Shown here: positions 2,476-30,647 of the stretch, one piece after another
Layout: every line of letters begins with the position of its first letter
Position numbering within the stretch: position 1 is the stretch's first letter
Virus record (IMG/VR): IMGVR_UViG_3300021197_000869
Location: 1 to 32,582 of that record
DNA: 32,582 nt
Origin: a virus
Reading direction: 5' to 3' (one strand)
Notes under the pieces: model-generated
Seen by the model: only the letters and a program-made list of their open reading frames with translations
Database searches by the model: none
What the model was told of the DNA's origin: nothing
Position numbers and translations under genes: made by a program

Positions 2476-2626
2476 CAACCTCGCCCCAGCCGCCACAGAC
2501 CTCGCACTCCTGCCAGCGCGTGCGTATCTCGACATAGCGATCCGGCGTGTAGCCGCCGACTGTGTACTCGACTTCGACCTCGCCTTCGCCGTCGCACTCA
2601 GGGCAAATGTGTTCAGTATTAACCAT
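2468..2626 (-). CDS. Zinc-ribbon microprotein, 52 aa
   Basis: Small gene with two CxxC knuckles, ICPECDG near residue 8 and CEVCGGWGE near residue 41, separated by an acidic, Tyr-rich spacer; this resembles a DnaJ-type zinc ribbon. The ATG overlaps the methyltransferase stop (TAATG) and its 3' end overlaps the VRR-NUC start, consistent with translational coupling in one operon. Function unknown; such small zinc proteins are common in phage early regions. Confidence 0.7.
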   Translation of the reverse strand: MVNTEHICPECDGEGEVEVEYTVGGYTPDRYVEIRTRWQECEVCGGWGEVDD

Positions 2627-4080
2627 TAGATTTTATCCACGGCATCAATCCGCTGGCCGATCCAGCGCATGACGTTGACCGCCATCGAGTTGCCTAACGC
2701 CTTGTACCGGGGACCATCAGGACAGGCGTCAGCGTCCTTGCCGCGCCAGGGGATAGCCGTCCAGCCATCAGGAAAGCCTTGTAGCCGCTCGCATTCGGTC
2801 GGCGTCAACCGCCGCACGGCAGCAGGAGAGGCAATTGCTGGCGCGTGAGCTCCTGCGGCAAGCGGATGGGATGGATCACCGGGCTGCGGGTTGCTGCCAT
2901 TCTGCGGTGAGGTGATCTGTGTCGTGTCAAACGGTACTGGCGTCGTCACATAATCGCCGCCCTGGTTGCCGCCTACCGGCCCACCCGCCATGATCGGCTG
3001 CGACACGTCAGTCTCGCGCGCCTTGTAGTCCTTGCCGCTGTTCATCGGCATGATGCTGTAAGCAACCGCCATCGGATCATGGCGCCGTAGCGTCGGCGAT
3101 AATTCTTCTGCTGCGTCCGCGCCGTGGTCAACTCTCTGAAAAGCTGTCGGCACCAACGGCGTGCCGCGCCCCGTGCCGTCCTCGCTGGCGTCAAAGCCTT
3201 CCGCGCGCAGTGCGTGAGTGACCGGGATCACGCGCCCCGTGTAGGCGTCCTGTCCGTTCAGTCCGCCGCCCATGTGCGCGCCATCGCTCAACGCGCCGCA
3301 AACCTCAAAGCCGATATCCTCTATGAAGTCGCTTGCTTGAACAGCTACCACCGGATCTTGTCCCCGCGTCTCTCCCGTGCGCTCAACGCCTCGCCCACTA
3401 CTTAGTAGGGCTGGCGAAACATCGTGCGTTATGTCGCCGGGGAACCCGCTACACTGGTTAGCGCCGACCGGAGGGCTGTCGGCAATTCTTTCCCGCGCTT
3501 TGCGGCGCGGCGCAGGATGCCCTGACAGGCTTTCGCGCTCAAAAAGTACCGCTGCGGCACGCCGCCAATCTCCAAGATATCCGACAACGAACACACGCCG
3601 TCGTCGCTGCGGAACTGCTCGGGCAAAGCCGTCCACTCGGACGTGCTGAGCGTCAAGAACTCTGTAGGCGAACCCATACCCGAGTTCGACCAGCCCCCCG
3701 AGTATGCTACCAAAGTCCCGTCCTCCTCCTGACGACAGGACGCCGGGGACGTTCTCCCAGACCAGCCACTTGGGCCGCAGTCTCTGAGCCAGTCTAAGAT
3801 ACTCAAGCGCCAGGTTACCGCGGTCGTCATCCAATCCTCCTCTGAGGCCGGCGATTGAAAATGATTGACAAGGTGTGCCTCCGACCAAAAGCTGAATTGG
3901 CTCATATTGGTTTTCCTCAATGGTTGTAAAATCGCCGTGTAACGGCACGTCAGGAAACCGATGCGCCAGGACGGCGCACGGAAACTTTTCGATTTCGGAG
4001 ACAAAAGCGGCAGACCAGCCCAGCGGCGCCCATGCAACAGACGCGGCTTCAATGCCGGAACAGACGGATCCGTACTTCAT
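2626..4080 (-). CDS. dcm: DNA (cytosine-5) methyltransferase
   Basis: A 484-residue C5 methyltransferase. Motif I is VCSGIEAASVAWAPLGW (residues 6-22), motif IV is GGTPCQSFS with catalytic Cys71, motif VI is WENVPGV (108-114), motif VIII is PQRRRRVFVVGY (157-168), and motif X is GNSMAVNVMRWIG near the C-terminus, preceded by LQGFPDGW. The long section between about residues 180 and 425 is the target recognition region, rich in Gly and Asp. No restriction enzyme partner is adjacent, so it is probably an orphan enzyme protecting phage DNA or modulating expression. It starts with an ATGA overlap on the Cro-like gene. Confidence 0.95.
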   Translation of the reverse strand: MKYGSVCSGIEAASVAWAPLGWSAAFVSEIEKFPCAVLAHRFPDVPLHGDFTTIEENQYEPIQLLVGGTPCQSFSIAGLRGGLDDDRGNLALEYLRLAQRLRPKWLVWENVPGVLSSGGGRDFGSILGGLVELGYGFAYRVLDAQHVRVDGFARAVPQRRRRVFVVGYLGDWRRAAAVLFERESLSGHPAPRRKARERIADSPPVGANQCSGFPGDITHDVSPALLSSGRGVERTGETRGQDPVVAVQASDFIEDIGFEVCGALSDGAHMGGGLNGQDAYTGRVIPVTHALRAEGFDASEDGTGRGTPLVPTAFQRVDHGADAAEELSPTLRRHDPMAVAYSIMPMNSGKDYKARETDVSQPIMAGGPVGGNQGGDYVTTPVPFDTTQITSPQNGSNPQPGDPSHPLAAGAHAPAIASPAAVRRLTPTECERLQGFPDGWTAIPWRGKDADACPDGPRYKALGNSMAVNVMRWIGQRIDAVDKI

Positions 4081-7000: not shown

Positions 7001-7146
7001 GAACCGAAGTTACCGTTGCTCATCGCGGCGGAACGACTGAAAGAGGTGTGATCGTGGGCCGCACGTATTCGAACCCAATCCGATATGACGTGGCAACGTC
7101 TGACAAGATTTTGACGGACGTGTTTGCGGATCAGATTGATGAATAG
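6976..7146 (+). CDS. Small hypothetical protein, 56 aa
   Basis: ATG at 6976 follows GGAGAGAG; an upstream ATG at 6964 in the same frame is possible. The protein is beta-rich (RLRTEVTVAHRGGTTERGVI then SNPIRYDVATSDKILTDVFA), resembling a small SH3/KOW-like barrel. It overlaps both neighbours, as expected in this compact operon. Function unknown. Confidence 0.6.
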   Translation: MEDRPIRLRTEVTVAHRGGTTERGVIVGRTYSNPIRYDVATSDKILTDVFADQIDE

Positions 7147-7831
7147 CGTGGTCAGTTTTGACGGTGGCACACCGGACTTCATGTCCGACTGGGTCGCTGC
7201 GCTTCATGCAATGGACAACCCGAACCTCGACGGACGAGCCAACTATGGCACCTATCCGACGCTCGGCGGGTGCCTGACTGCCGCAAAGGCAGCATTGTCA
7301 GGGCATAACCTGGCTGTGATGCAGCTCGTATGCCCCGGCGAAGACGGCCAGCCCGACCGGCTGGTCACGCGCATAATCCACACGTCCGGTCAATCGCTGG
7401 AAGATGGCGGCGTGCCGCTCTACTGCGCGGACAAGAACAACCCTCAAAAGCTCGGGTCCGCGATCACATACGCACGCCGGTACGGCCTGCTTGCAATGAT
7501 GGGGGTCGTGGGTGACGACGACGACGATGGCAACGCTGCCACGCCGCCAGAACAGCGTCCACGATCCAAAACTGCGGCAACACCGACACCAGTAAAACGT
7601 GTTGCAGACGAGATACCTCTCACACCAGCGGATGAGCGGGCGGATTACGCTTCTTGGACACTTGAGGCGATTGCGGGCTTTGCAGCCCACCGTGATCTCG
7701 CGCAGCACACAGCTTGGGCGTCAGTCAACAGACCAACCCTCGACCAGATGAAAGTTGACGCGCCACAGGAACGGCAAAAATTACTTGAAGCGTTCACAAC
7801 CAGAAAAGGAGAACTAGCAAATGCCGAATGA
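7139..7831 (+). CDS. erf: ERF-family single-strand annealing protein
   Basis: A 230-residue recombinase. The N-terminal two-thirds carry the ERF fold, including PTLGGCLTAAKAALSGHNLA and the signature GSAITYARRYGLLAMMGVVG followed by an Asp run (DDDDDG), typical of P22 Erf relatives that anneal ssDNA and circularise or repair phage genomes. The C-terminal part is a Pro/Thr-rich linker and a helical tail. The start at 7139 is chosen because it begins at the family N-terminus and overlaps the previous gene by 8 nt. Partner of the upstream nuclease and probably of the SSB-tailed protein downstream. Confidence 0.9.
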   Translation: MNSVVSFDGGTPDFMSDWVAALHAMDNPNLDGRANYGTYPTLGGCLTAAKAALSGHNLAVMQLVCPGEDGQPDRLVTRIIHTSGQSLEDGGVPLYCADKNNPQKLGSAITYARRYGLLAMMGVVGDDDDDGNAATPPEQRPRSKTAATPTPVKRVADEIPLTPADERADYASWTLEAIAGFAAHRDLAQHTAWASVNRPTLDQMKVDAPQERQKLLEAFTTRKGELANAE

Positions 7832-9838: not shown

Positions 9839-9877
9839 AAGTAACTGTTCGTCACTAAAGTAGTGACTGTTGGTTAC
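9839..9877. promoter_or_regulatory. 39-bp nested dyad before the integrase gene
   Basis: AGTAAC-N5-GTCACT, five nt, then AGTGAC-N5-GTTACT: two half-site types mirrored around the centre. The half-sites match those of the control-region operators (GTAACC/GTTAC and GTCAC/GTGAC). It overlaps the integrase ribosome-binding region, suggesting repression of int or an integrase/excisionase arm site. Confidence 0.6.
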
Positions 9878-27577: not shown

Positions 27578-28057
27578 TTAGTCGATGACGTAATGGATCA
27601 GGAACGACATCGTTCCTAACGTTCCGCCAGCCGCAGCCATCGTCGCTGCGATGTAGTAGTACCCACCGGGATTGACTGAATCCCCGGCAAGTTCCCACAC
27701 CCGTTTGCCAGCGGTGTCGATGTTCGCAGCTTCAAAGCGAACATCGGCCATCGCTGCAGCATCGGCTACCGCAGAAGCAAAGACGTCTTCGTCTTTGACT
27801 ACGCCAGCCGTGGTGTAGATGCCTACGTTGAACGTGCAACTGCCGCCAAGCGTATCAGACCCAATAAAGAGCTGGGTGATGTTCGCGTGGGCAGGAATCT
27901 GAGCGAGCATGACAATGTCATCATCGTCAGAGTCCCCTGCTGCAACTTCAATGGTGCCAGCGGCTACACGCACTACGCCATGTAGATCCTGGCTTGCGCT
28001 CAGTGTCGGAGGATCTGCCTCAAACGCTGCAACGATATCAGAGTTTTTAGTACCCAT
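27578..28057 (-). CDS. Capsid cement (decoration) protein, Bbp16-like
   Basis: A 159-residue protein directly after the major capsid gene. Its beta-strand content (LHGVVRVAAGTIEVAAGDSD; SDTLGGSCTFNVGIYTTAGV; YYYIAATMAAAGGTLGTMSF) and position match the BPP-1 cement protein, which stabilises the expanded shell. Strong AGGAGGGA ribosome-binding site 14 nt after the capsid stop. High expression is expected. Assignment rests on gene order and general sequence character. Confidence 0.7.
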   Translation of the reverse strand: MGTKNSDIVAAFEADPPTLSASQDLHGVVRVAAGTIEVAAGDSDDDDIVMLAQIPAHANITQLFIGSDTLGGSCTFNVGIYTTAGVVKDEDVFASAVADAAAMADVRFEAANIDTAGKRVWELAGDSVNPGGYYYIAATMAAAGGTLGTMSFLIHYVID

Positions 28058-28071
28058 GACTATTCCCTCCT

Positions 28072-29604
28072 CTACTCGTTACACGCAATTTCAACGACTT
28101 TGTCTTCTTCCATCCGGGTCGAACCGAAGGTCGCGCAGTAGTAAACCTGCGTGGAATAAGACTTGTCGCTGCGCTCATCGATCCGAGCCATCACATCTTT
28201 GCCGACTGCCAGCTTGCAGCCGTCCTGCGCCCACGCATAACAAAGGCGCGAGGTGCCATCGTCTGACAGACGATTAGAAGTGATGAACTTGAAACCGACA
28301 AACGTGTCGATGTCACCCTGTACAAGTGCCTTCCGTCACACTTCGGCTTTCGCCGCCAGCTTTCGCTGTTCGTGCGCTGGACTTTCTCTTCATCTCGATG
28401 AGATGCTGCCCGTCAAGTCTCTACACCTTCCGCTTTCGCGGCTTGGCTCGGGATTAGCATTTTAAAGCCTTCCCCGAATTTGAGCAGTTTTCGTCTGACC
28501 GTCGCCGATCAGATAGGCAAAGTGTTTACCGTATTGAAATCACTTGAAGTTACAGAGGTCGTATTGAGCAGGTCTTCGATCTGCTCAGGGCTTACCACGA
28601 TGTATCGCGGAATGGACGGATCAACCGACTGCGAATCAATGAGTTTTTTTGCGCTCACCAATTTTGCAACTGTCAATCCGGCAGAACCATGCGCGATTTT
28701 CTGGCCGCTTGGGAACGACGTAGAGGTCGTTCCTTCCTTGCCGGTCTTCGCGGTTCCACCAAGTGCGCTGATGATGGTGTCGTCCATCGCACGACCTATC
28801 GCCGCCGCAGCCGCACGGGCATACGAGGACGTCGGGTCGATCAACATACGAACCTTGTCAGCATCGTCAATGTAACAGTTCAGTCAGAGGCGCTAACTCT
28901 GACCCGCTTTCGCTGCCTGCGGTTTCCCGCAGGATCGGACTATATCATCACCCCTTGCGGGGGCTGGGCGCTTCCACCGCGCTTGCGGTGTACTCCTTGC
29001 GGATAGTCTCTGAACCTTCTCTTTCGAGCTTGGCTGCTGATTGGCATATCCTTGCGGACTTAGCTTTCCAGCAGTTCACCCAGTTACGACCCCATTGAGG
29101 TCGGCCCATTCGTAAGTGGTCAGGCTAACCATTCTCCGAGAGTGCGGTGTTTCAACGAGGGGTGTATCCAGAATCTTCAATAAGAGACGCTACACTCTTA
29201 CCGGCTGTCTAGCAGCTCCCGACAATCTCTTGCCGGCTGAGACTATATCATCATCCCTTAGGATGCCCTGCGCTTCGGGCCGCTTGGCCCTACTCGCTTG
29301 CGCGATAGTCGTTGAACCTTCTCTTTCGAGCTTGGCTGCTGATTGCCCTCGGCTTCACGTTAGGGTGTCCCAGCAATTCACAGGGTTTTCATTTGGCTGT
29401 TACCAGCCAACGCTCCAATTAAATAGAGTGCCTCGATGACCGCGCTACTGCGGCTGCTTCTCCGACCTGGTCGAAGAAGGCTTTTTCGCCGGTGACACTT
29501 TCGGTGTCCACGGCACCTCGCAACAGACTTCCCATCTGCTGCGAGAGCATAGCGACGTTGGAACTGAATTGGTTCACAAACGCCGTATTTACCTGAGTTG
29601 ACAT
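28072..29604 (-). CDS. Major capsid protein, split by three group I introns
   Basis: Four exons: 29425-29604, 29098-29168, 28528-28875 and 28072-28333. Together they make 861 nt, a 286-residue HK97-fold-type capsid protein of the BPP-1 kind. Exon 1 gives VNTAFVNQFSSNVAMLSQQM and ESVTGEKAFFDQVG up to SSRHS. Exon 2 continues DTPLVETPHSRRMVSLTTYE and WADL. Exon 3 continues IDDADKVRMLIDPTSSYAR and ends DFNTV. Exon 4 continues KALVQGDIDTFVGFKF and ends EIACNE. The joined frame matches family order without gaps; the last intron's junction restores the frequent TVKALV motif. Unspliced, translation would stop after 61 residues. AGGAG precedes the ATG. Exon 3 may instead start at 28872 (285 residues). 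Confidence 0.9.
28334..28527 (-). ncRNA. Group I intron C in the capsid gene (194 nt, IC3-like)
   Basis: Core elements on the minus strand: P AAATTCGGGGAAGGC, Q AATCCCGAGCCAAGCC, R GGTGTAGAGACTTGACG, S AAGAGAAAGTCC. Pairings: P3 CUGC/GCAG, P4 CGGG/CCCG, P6 CCGC-GAAA-GCGG, P7 GACUU/AAGUC, P8 CAUCU/AGAUG, and two GCGAAAGC-type hairpins in P9. P1 is exon GGU plus intron AAA paired to UUUGCC, with the U-G at the splice site; P10 is exon GAAG with CUUU. P2 is UGAUC/GGUCA. The close resemblance to the tRNA introns of Azoarcus and Anabaena indicates subgroup IC3. It has no ORF and ends in G. Confidence 0.9.
28876..29097 (-). ncRNA. Group I intron B in the capsid gene (222 nt, IA-like)
   Basis: Minus-strand core: P GAACTGCTGGAAAGC, Q AATCAGCAGCCAAGC, R GTTCAGAGACTATC, S ATGATATAGTCC. 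Pairings: P3 CUGGG/CCCAG, P7 GACUAUC/GAUAUAGUC, P8 CCCC-GCAA-GGGG, a P9 hairpin CCUGCGG/CCGCAGG, and a second GUCAGAG/CUCUGAC. The insertion between P7 and P3 (P7.1/P7.2) marks subgroup IA, as in T4 td. P1 is exon CGACCU with GGGUCG. The 3' end is drawn at the G at 28876; exon start at 28872 would give a perfect 5-bp P10 and a residue-for-residue family match but an intron ending in A. It shares 33 identical nt with intron A. Confidence 0.9.
29169..29424 (-). ncRNA. Group I intron A in the capsid gene (256 nt, IA-like)
   Basis: Minus-strand core: P AATTGCTGGGA, Q AATCAGCAGCCAAGC, R GTTCAACGACTATC, S ATGATATAGTCTC; the R-to-S stretch follows the T4 td intron closely (ACGACTATC, GAGTAGGG, CAAG, CCCGAA, ATATAGTCT). 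Pairings: P2 UUGGCUG/CAGCCAA with a GUAA loop, P3 CCCUG/CAGGG, P7 GACUAUC/GAUAUAGUC, P8 CAUCC/GGAUG, with P7.1/P7.2 between. P1 is exon CUCU with GGAG, placing the U-G pair at the last exon base. The intron ends in G and the joined codons read Ser-Asp. No endonuclease gene is present. Confidence 0.92.
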
Positions 29605-29684: not shown

Positions 29685-29854
29685 TGATCCGCCTTACTCA
29701 CAGGCTTGCGCCGCGGGGCCGGCTTAGACTTATCCGCGGGTTTCACGAAACTGAAGTATCTCTCAGCGAGATCAACCGGATCGTTTATCGTGCGCGCGCT
29801 GCCGAACTGTACGGCAAGGCGCAAACATTCGAGGCGCAGAGCATCATTCTCCAT
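29675..29854 (-). CDS. Small phage protein between scaffold and capsid genes, 59 aa
   Basis: The ATG lies within the scaffold gene's last codons (11-nt overlap). The sequence MENDALRLECLRLAVQFG, then NDPVDLAERYFSFVKPADK and a basic Lys/Pro tail, resembles a small conserved protein seen in many tailed phages (RLECL-x-LA near the start and DPV-x-LAE). Its function is unknown. Coupled translation with the scaffold suggests a capsid-assembly role. Confidence 0.7.
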   Translation of the reverse strand: MENDALRLECLRLAVQFGSARTINDPVDLAERYFSFVKPADKSKPAPRRKPVSKADQSA

Positions 29855-30647
29855 GCATCTGCTCCCGTAATCTCAGCACCTCATTGACCACGCGGTCATG
29901 CTCGGGGTGGTGCTTTTCCCAGTAAGGCGAGTTCTTTGCCGTCATCTCTGACATACGCGCCTGCAGGTCTTCGTCAGTAATGCCCGGTCGGCTATCCCTG
30001 CCGGCTAGTCCATCCTCACTGATCTGCTCGGCAACATAATCACTGATGTTAACCATCAGCTTGACCAGCTCGGGGTTGTCACCCAGCAGGCTACCGTCTG
30101 CGAGCTGTATCTCTGTCAGGTCCGGTGCGTCAAACTCTTTCAGCAGCTCGTTGGCGCGAGACATCTTGTCGTCAAACTCGCCGCCAAACTCTTTTCGTAA
30201 CTCTGTCTCTACTTCTGAGCGGCGTGTTTCCATCGCCTCCTCGGACATCACGGTCGCCTGGCCTGCAAACTCGCCATATGCTTCTGCGAGCTTCGCGGCC
30301 TGTCGATCAGACAGTCCTGATTGATGTGCGGCATCGCGGAACCAATCCGCCATGTCGCCCTCCATTTCACCTATATCGTAATCGCCGGCTTCCTGCGGTC
30401 TACCAAGTTTGTTGTAAACCAAATCCCAGTCTTCATCGGTCGCCCAGTTGCCAGGGATCGCTAACTTCTCCGATCCAACCATCTTCTGCGCGTTGATGTA
30501 ACTTTTAGCCATGCCCTCGACACTGCCGATATGCTGCAGTGAAGGGTCGCTTGCTATTTCGGGGGGCAGTGATGCCAGCCAGTTGTCACTCCCAGACGGT
30601 GCCTCCCCGGCATCTGCCGGAGCTTCCGCTACCTGTTCGTCGGACAT
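29844..30647 (-). CDS. Capsid scaffolding protein
   Basis: A 267-residue acidic, mostly helical protein between portal and capsid genes. Conserved blocks: NWLASLPPEIASDPSLQHIG, VEGMAKSYINAQKMVGSEKL and IPGNWATDEDWDLVYNKLGR at residues 23-82, a central helical domain (DRQAAKLAEAYGEFAGQA; EFGGEFDDKMSRANELLKEF), and a basic/acidic C-terminal helix ending in MHGE, the likely capsid-binding end. GAGGAG precedes the ATG. It should guide shell assembly and then leave or be degraded. Confidence 0.8.
   Translation of the reverse strand: MSDEQVAEAPADAGEAPSGSDNWLASLPPEIASDPSLQHIGSVEGMAKSYINAQKMVGSEKLAIPGNWATDEDWDLVYNKLGRPQEAGDYDIGEMEGDMADWFRDAAHQSGLSDRQAAKLAEAYGEFAGQATVMSEEAMETRRSEVETELRKEFGGEFDDKMSRANELLKEFDAPDLTEIQLADGSLLGDNPELVKLMVNISDYVAEQISEDGLAGRDSRPGITDEDLQARMSEMTAKNSPYWEKHHPEHDRVVNEVLRLREQMHGE

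Follow-up and report, generated by a model that had tools for sequence, protein, structure and literature searches.

The viral genome analysed here (IMG/VR record IMGVR_UViG_3300021197_000869; 32,582 bases, hereafter the window) belongs to a temperate podovirus whose virion genes—portal, scaffold-position protein, capsid and tail—lie on the minus strand. Its major capsid gene, spanning positions 29604 to 28072 on that strand, is very probably a mosaic of (i) four exons and (ii) three small group I introns that are self-splicing, mobile and near-neutral and entered the gene in separate events; we put the probability of this reading at about 0.93. It is based on the introns themselves, exon–intron junctions placed by comparison, conservation of the intron folds, selection on the spliced product, a patchy, capsid-only distribution, and co-conversion tracts.

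Homologue alignment and junction fitting place exon 1 at 29425–29604 (180 nucleotides (nt), codons 1–60, 3' end ...CACTCT/, where the slash marks the splice site), exon 2 at 29098–29168 (71 nt), exon 3 at 28528–28872 (345 nt) and exon 4 at 28072–28333 (262 nt, including the stop codon), all on the minus strand. The spliced product is a major capsid protein: it matches PF19821 (Phage_capsid_2) with an E-value of 7.5e-93 across profile positions 1–293 of 293, and a second profile, phrog_3437, agrees (E 4.6e-89). As an earlier reading of the DNA letters (the sequence-only reading) had stated, the protein as encoded requires the removal of all three introns. There is no second, intact capsid gene in this record. 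Among cultured phages, the closest capsids are those of HTVC010P-type pelagiphages, with identity of up to 69%. The best relatives among uncultured contigs are 91–93% identical at the protein level, and carry the gene in one piece with the intron sites empty.

An Rfam cmscan search returned matches to RF00028 above the gathering score (50 bits) at all three inserts: 29434–29219 (89.7 bits, E 6.3e-22), 29136–28916 (76.6 bits) and 28537–28354 (53.4 bits). The same search gave no further group I matches elsewhere in the window. Three group I introns had been proposed from the letters, with the strand unnamed; the search recovers all three cores, on the minus strand. Intron 1 (29169–29424; 256 nt; U/...G/) follows coding sequence (CDS) nt 180, and is IA-like; its P3 pairs 29385–29379 with 29272–29266, and its P7 pairs 29310–29306 with 29245–29241. 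Intron 2 (28873–29097; 225 nt), also IA-like, follows CDS nt 251, with the 5' splice site GACCU/CAAUG and the 3' splice site GUUA/CAUUG. Intron 3 (28334–28527; 194 nt; GGU/AAA...ACG/GAAGGC) follows CDS nt 596 and belongs to a second subgroup; its P3 pairs 28487–28482 with 28411–28406, and its P7 pairs 28419–28415 with 28384–28380. All three introns contain P3, P7 and P8, and a U-G pair in P1 at the 5' splice site, as the sequence-only reading described. The group I core, a P3/P7 pseudoknot with P4, P6 and P8, is present. A terminal G is found in introns 1 and 3; for intron 2, the junction backed by homology and by P10 (see below) predicts a terminal A.

Introns 1 and 2 have in common an identical 32-base core stretch, and the extra stems P7.1 and P7.2 between P7 and P3', which are a trait of subgroup IA. 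These stems are absent from intron 3, which belongs to another part of the intron tree (clade A); it follows that at least two intron lineages entered the window capsid gene. The P2 hairpin is missing in intron 2 (29097–29077) and present in the related intron at the same site of locus L093, a natural deletion. The longest start-to-stop open reading frame (ORF) in the window introns encodes 43 amino acids (aa), so none carries a homing endonuclease in cis, and there is none among the window proteins scanned; the introns had been described as lacking one, correctly.

The folds are conserved across related introns. In 18 IA-like introns, 97.3% of cells are paired (against 71.7% after shuffling), compensatory change is seen in 31 of 41 pairs, and P3 and P7 are 100% paired. 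P3 and P7 are also 100% paired in the second subgroup, where five of six P3 pairs covary and where total pairing is lowered by one ill-chosen P4 column and by P2 as drawn. Between intron-bearing alleles, the joined exons have a ratio of nonsynonymous to synonymous divergence (dN/dS) of 0.05–0.10 at dS 0.2–1.3 (about 0.07 at dS 0.3–1.1); values this low at such dS indicate that the spliced product has long been under strong purifying selection, during the time that introns were around.

Further interrupted capsid genes were reached by a search with the 32-base core, and carry introns in other combinations. An exon 3-only query, which takes no account of introns in other parts of the gene, gave the 80 loci nearest to window exon 3, and one or more introns interrupt at least 36 of them; with a second, broader query, at least 10 of 80 loci are interrupted. 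Both counts are lower bounds because the chain finder overlooks some inserts (those of L138, L175 and L179 among them). Exact junction fitting gives 14 insertion sites, after CDS nt 127, 150, 180, 190, 194, 204, 213, 251, 276, 477, 596, 604, 772 and 819. The junctions of L090 and L094 were resolved by eye, and a second reading by eye moved the L146 site from 197 to nt 194, which has U and G. An apparent single site at 151 turned out to be two sites, 150 and 190, whose introns flank a 40-nt exon. Nine of the 14 sites fall within 150 nt in the 5' part of the gene (CDS nt 127–276; P about 0.004 under uniform placement). This crowded region lies around the DTPHSRR / YEWADLIDD stretch of the protein.

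Every fitted junction restores the reading frame, and an RF00028 match above the cut-off was obtained at every sampled insertion site (28 matches in 20 loci, plus L094). The maximum per gene is reached in the L094 capsid (4589–2788, minus strand), whose five exons, one of them just 40 nt long, are separated by four group I introns. None of the 54 distinct introns, which measure 192–266 nt, has an endonuclease-sized ORF; the longest start-to-stop ORF in single introns of the relatives is 67 aa, and an 84-aa candidate spans two introns once these are resolved. Site 180 is also filled, by nearly the same intron, in L084, L095, L096, L099, L105 and L107, and site 251 is filled in L084, L085, L093, L106, L108 and L140. 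Near-identical capsids come with different intron sets: 180, 251 and 596 in the window; 180 and 251 in L084; 596 in L115; 127, 596 and 772 in L116; and 180, 251 and 772 in L105.

In the related records scanned, the introns are confined to the capsid gene. Comparison of match coordinates with locus ranges in 49 related records (1.28 Mb) placed 22 of 22 group I introns in the capsid gene; none was found in the 31 records with an intact capsid gene, nor outside the capsid gene in any of the 49. The other 18 records were picked for an interrupted capsid, so the positive count is biased and the absence from other genes is unbiased. Elsewhere, this intron lineage also occurs in other genes of other phages, where the 32-base core adjoins non-capsid frames (L086, L091, L092, L098, L100, L102, L104, L109 and L113). 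Judged by eye, these frames resemble genes for terminase, tape measure, DNA polymerase and RNA polymerase, and for an ATPase accompanied by a GIY-YIG-like frame. One scan of bacterial and archaeal genome contigs found a single relative, the contig L267 (JAPYOO010000032.1) of a Bermanella metagenome-assembled genome, with a capsid 57% identical to window exon 3; that scan yielded no host and no culturable intron-bearing prophage.

Three things are inferred from these observations: that the introns splice, how they reach new sites, and that they are near-neutral. Each intron would fold in the late transcript, bind guanosine, and excise at the 5' splice site marked by the U-G pair; the joining of the exons would then give a normal capsid protein of 285 aa. 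Introns 1 and 2 are IA-like elements related to each other, and intron 3 is of the second subgroup. Because splicing would restore the frame, the cost to the capsid gene is expected to be low. From phage to phage, the introns would travel along with the adjoining exon sequence when co-infecting genomes undergo homologous recombination (gene conversion). Occasional entry into new sites of the same gene would occur most plausibly by reverse splicing, guided by a match of 4–6 nt to the guide.

The sequence record of spread is clearest at site 180, where the introns of the window and L099 are 98.8% identical and the exons are 99.2% identical within 60 nt of the site, versus 83.0% beyond 150 nt. 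Similar co-conversion is seen at site 772 (L096/L116) and site 596 (L158/L180). As read from these alignments, co-conversion tracts are the mark of gene conversion, as in homing; gene conversion without an endonuclease of the tested kinds points to either plain recombination in co-infection or a nuclease acting in trans. The latter possibility amounts to collaborative homing: a free-standing endonuclease of the same or a co-infecting phage cuts empty capsid sites, and the ORF-less introns are carried along. The tracts at 180, 772 and 596 do resemble double-strand-break repair, HNH_3 genes occur in 6 of the 49 related records, and collaborative homing has a precedent (PMC10448857). However, the HNH_3 genes in those six records show no tie to introns or capsid, 0 of 54 introns have an endonuclease-sized ORF, and 14 different sites would require many specificities. 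HNH_3 and GIY-YIG are both absent from the window, where the genes flanking the capsid gene are virion genes and where Pfam scans of the window proteins alone cover other nuclease families; GIY-YIG is found in 0 of the 49 records (the nuclease searches across relatives covered HNH_3 and GIY-YIG, and not the LAGLIDADG, VSR-like or other HNH families). We regard collaborative homing as possible but on balance doubtful.

With respect to new sites, the introns at 190, 213, 276, 596 (L156) and 819 are related, and have in common the guide GCGG and the exon end CCGU. The L094 introns at 190 and 819, in the same gene, are sisters in the intron tree, and site 596 has been entered by both intron clades. 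Shared guides in related introns at several sites fit guide-directed reverse splicing, as judged from sequence, although a guide match by itself is no proof since P1 pairing is needed for splicing anyway. More speculatively, the capsid mRNA, an abundant late message, may be the single landing pad of an endonuclease-free intron population, in which related, guide-sharing introns hop between sites by reverse splicing (RNA to DNA) and spread between phages by recombination, and in which one lineage completes splicing with a terminal A that an unusually complete P1/P10 duplex keeps in place.

Several observations weigh against the picture of separately arrived, mobile, self-splicing introns. Firstly, the capsid gene is intact in all cultured relatives listed. 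Secondly, introns at site 251 are 93–96% identical, and their flanking exons are no more alike than elsewhere (L085 versus the window), so co-conversion is not general. Thirdly, intron 2 ends in A and has an ordinary P7, and so its second splicing step may be slow or may occur at another site. Finally, splicing is deduced here from fold conservation and from selection on the joined exons.

Group I introns nearly always end in G, and the terminal A of intron 2 is unusual. The sequence-only reading drew exons of 180, 71, 348 and 262 nt, which do form one open frame of 286 aa. Its boundaries for introns 1 and 3 stand; homologue alignment and a length-preserving fit show its second junction to be off by one codon. 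Against intronless homologues, that exon 2/3 junction has one codon too many (DLYIDD versus DLIDD), while the length-preserving junction, GACCU/CAUUG, lies 3 nt further on and gives an intron 2 of 225 nt rather than 222, an exon 3 of 345 nt, and a protein of 285 aa rather than 286. Across the ligated exons CGACCU/CAUUG, the guide sequence CAAUGGGGUCG pairs in an unbroken run, with the sole exception of a U-G wobble at the junction. Further site-251 introns require the corrected junction, and all are A-ended: L084, L085, L096 and L140, plus the more divergent L093 and L108.

The alternative is that intron 2 is cut at the ordinary G three bases earlier, such that the capsid gains one Tyr (DLYIDD). 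For the window intron and for most others at site 251, the usual terminal G would then be retained. Yet the extra residue is absent from all aligned homologues, the related introns of L093, L111 and L108 have no G at that position, the guide pairs in one run with GACCU/CAUUG, and L236 carries an independently derived, unrelated and G-ended intron at the identical GACCU/ position. The earlier cut, rejected on homology, P10 pairing and the relatives, is thus unlikely. An end at a downstream G (CAUUG/ACG) was also rejected; it breaks the frame, given the 5' splice site defined by the U-G pair. Since homology, P10 pairing, the related site-251 introns and L236 agree on the junction, we take the terminal A, as read from sequence, to be real. 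The A-ended introns at site 251 lie at 29097–28873 in the window, at 3280–3041 (minus strand) in L093, and at 9841–9626 (minus strand) in L108; in these, P7 is ordinary and the guide pairs with both exons in one run. The predicted exon 2/3 junction peptides are YEWADLIDDADK without the extra Tyr versus YEWADLYIDDADK with it. No precedent for A-ended group I introns was found in the open-access literature, which misses most subscription papers. The A-ended intron offers a natural test of how the 3' splice site is defined.

Another explanation is that the introns are kept for regulation, in that splicing would tie the amount of capsid made to temperature, magnesium or GTP. A role specific to one gene would predict their restriction to the capsid gene, and the fold is conserved. 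Against this, capsids that are nearly identical differ in the number (0 to 4), site and subgroup of their introns, and about half of the nearest loci are intron-free; such dispensability argues against a needed switch, and for mobile, near-neutral elements. Moreover, no sensor domain was reported by Rfam, the only search that could show one. A regulatory role is therefore improbable, and the control point proposed in the sequence-only reading finds no support, the patchy presence of introns among close relatives speaking against a required function. That the locus is a pseudogene or mis-assembly with the true capsid elsewhere, as a single metagenomic contig with a capsid gene in broken ORFs might suggest, can be set aside, being contradicted by the same introns at the same sites in independent contigs, a dN/dS of about 0.07, junctions that are all in frame, and the lack of a second capsid gene in the record.

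Two things appear to be new: within an environmental phage group, the capsid gene and no other has been invaded time and again by introns free of endonucleases, and one intron lineage is A-ended. The introns had been called unusual from the letters; this is half right, spliced capsid introns and three-intron phage genes having both been published. No description of a capsid-restricted, ORF-less, multi-site invasion was found in the open-access literature. Staphylococcus phage Twort reportedly has three group I introns in one late gene, with exon skipping possible, and introns in several of its genes; we know of no comparable population survey or capsid restriction for Twort. The title of the Twort report (Landthaler and Shub 1999, cited in PMC6669764) names three group I introns within a single gene. 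The major capsid gene of the Cluster J mycobacteriophage LittleE contains a probable group I intron that is absent from close relatives and efficiently spliced, as established by reverse-transcription PCR (RT-PCR) and the protein N-terminus; the same source cites lactococcal phage Tuc2009 as a further capsid case (PMC3706429). LittleE resembles the window in the gene affected, the U at the exon end and the G at the intron end, but in that single phage there is one intron, of 819 bp, which contains an endonuclease-like ORF, whereas here ORF-less introns of 192–266 nt occupy 14 sites population-wide.

The tape-measure gene of phage ICP1 comprises four exons and three introns, with splicing demonstrated by RNA-seq and RT-PCR and with intron content varying between isolates (PMC10448857). 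As in the window, three introns interrupt one essential virion gene and content is variable; in ICP1, however, HNH endonuclease genes lie inside the introns, splice junctions are fixed, and the genes concerned are tape measure and terminase rather than capsid. In Bastillevirinae, some polymerase and terminase genes have three introns (PMC11878797), and in Jug phages introns average about 206 nt, and 37 of the 76 predicted were seen to splice (PMC11878797, PMC12363816). These phages likewise have many group I introns in essential genes, but spread over terL, nrdD, polymerase and others, often with endonucleases; here they are in the capsid gene only. Mirusvirus capsid genes are also rich in variable introns (PMC12768974), with similar virion-gene enrichment and fast turnover between near-identical capsid genes; those introns are spliceosomal and the viruses eukaryotic, making this a parallel in pattern and not a relative. 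Finally, group I introns of fungal ribosomal DNA spread by reverse splicing (PMC1299323); as here, related introns with matching guides occupy several sites of one highly expressed RNA. The fungal case concerns eukaryotic ribosomal RNA, and the phage capsid data here provide no evidence for the reverse-transcription step. For capsid introns in pelagiphages or podoviruses, nothing on point was found in the open-access literature, so a prior description elsewhere is possible.

If the pattern holds, a group of marine-type podoviruses related to HTVC010P pelagiphages has a single gene that small, ORF-less ribozymes have entered again and again, the remainder of the genome staying clean. This makes it testable (i) how group I introns without endonucleases reach new sites, and (ii) why introns accumulate where they do (transcript abundance, gene tolerance, or use as regulators), and makes these viruses a natural laboratory for the spread of selfish RNAs. 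In practical terms, the pattern would also mean that in many of these phages the major capsid gene is fragmented by gene callers, so that capsid-based surveys and marker trees undercount them.

The neighbours of the capsid gene are uninterrupted and on the same (minus) strand. Upstream lies a phrog_3742 protein (29844–30647), in the scaffold position between portal and capsid, and beyond it the portal/head-tail connector (PF12236; 30861–32498); downstream is a small virion protein (27578–28057). A phage integrase is encoded at 9855–8461 in the window. The other window genes include a VRR-NUC nuclease, a C5 cytosine methylase and an ERF recombinase, listed together at 2110–2535, 2626–4080 and 7124–7831; the ERF-type recombinase could be a carrier of introns between co-infecting genomes.
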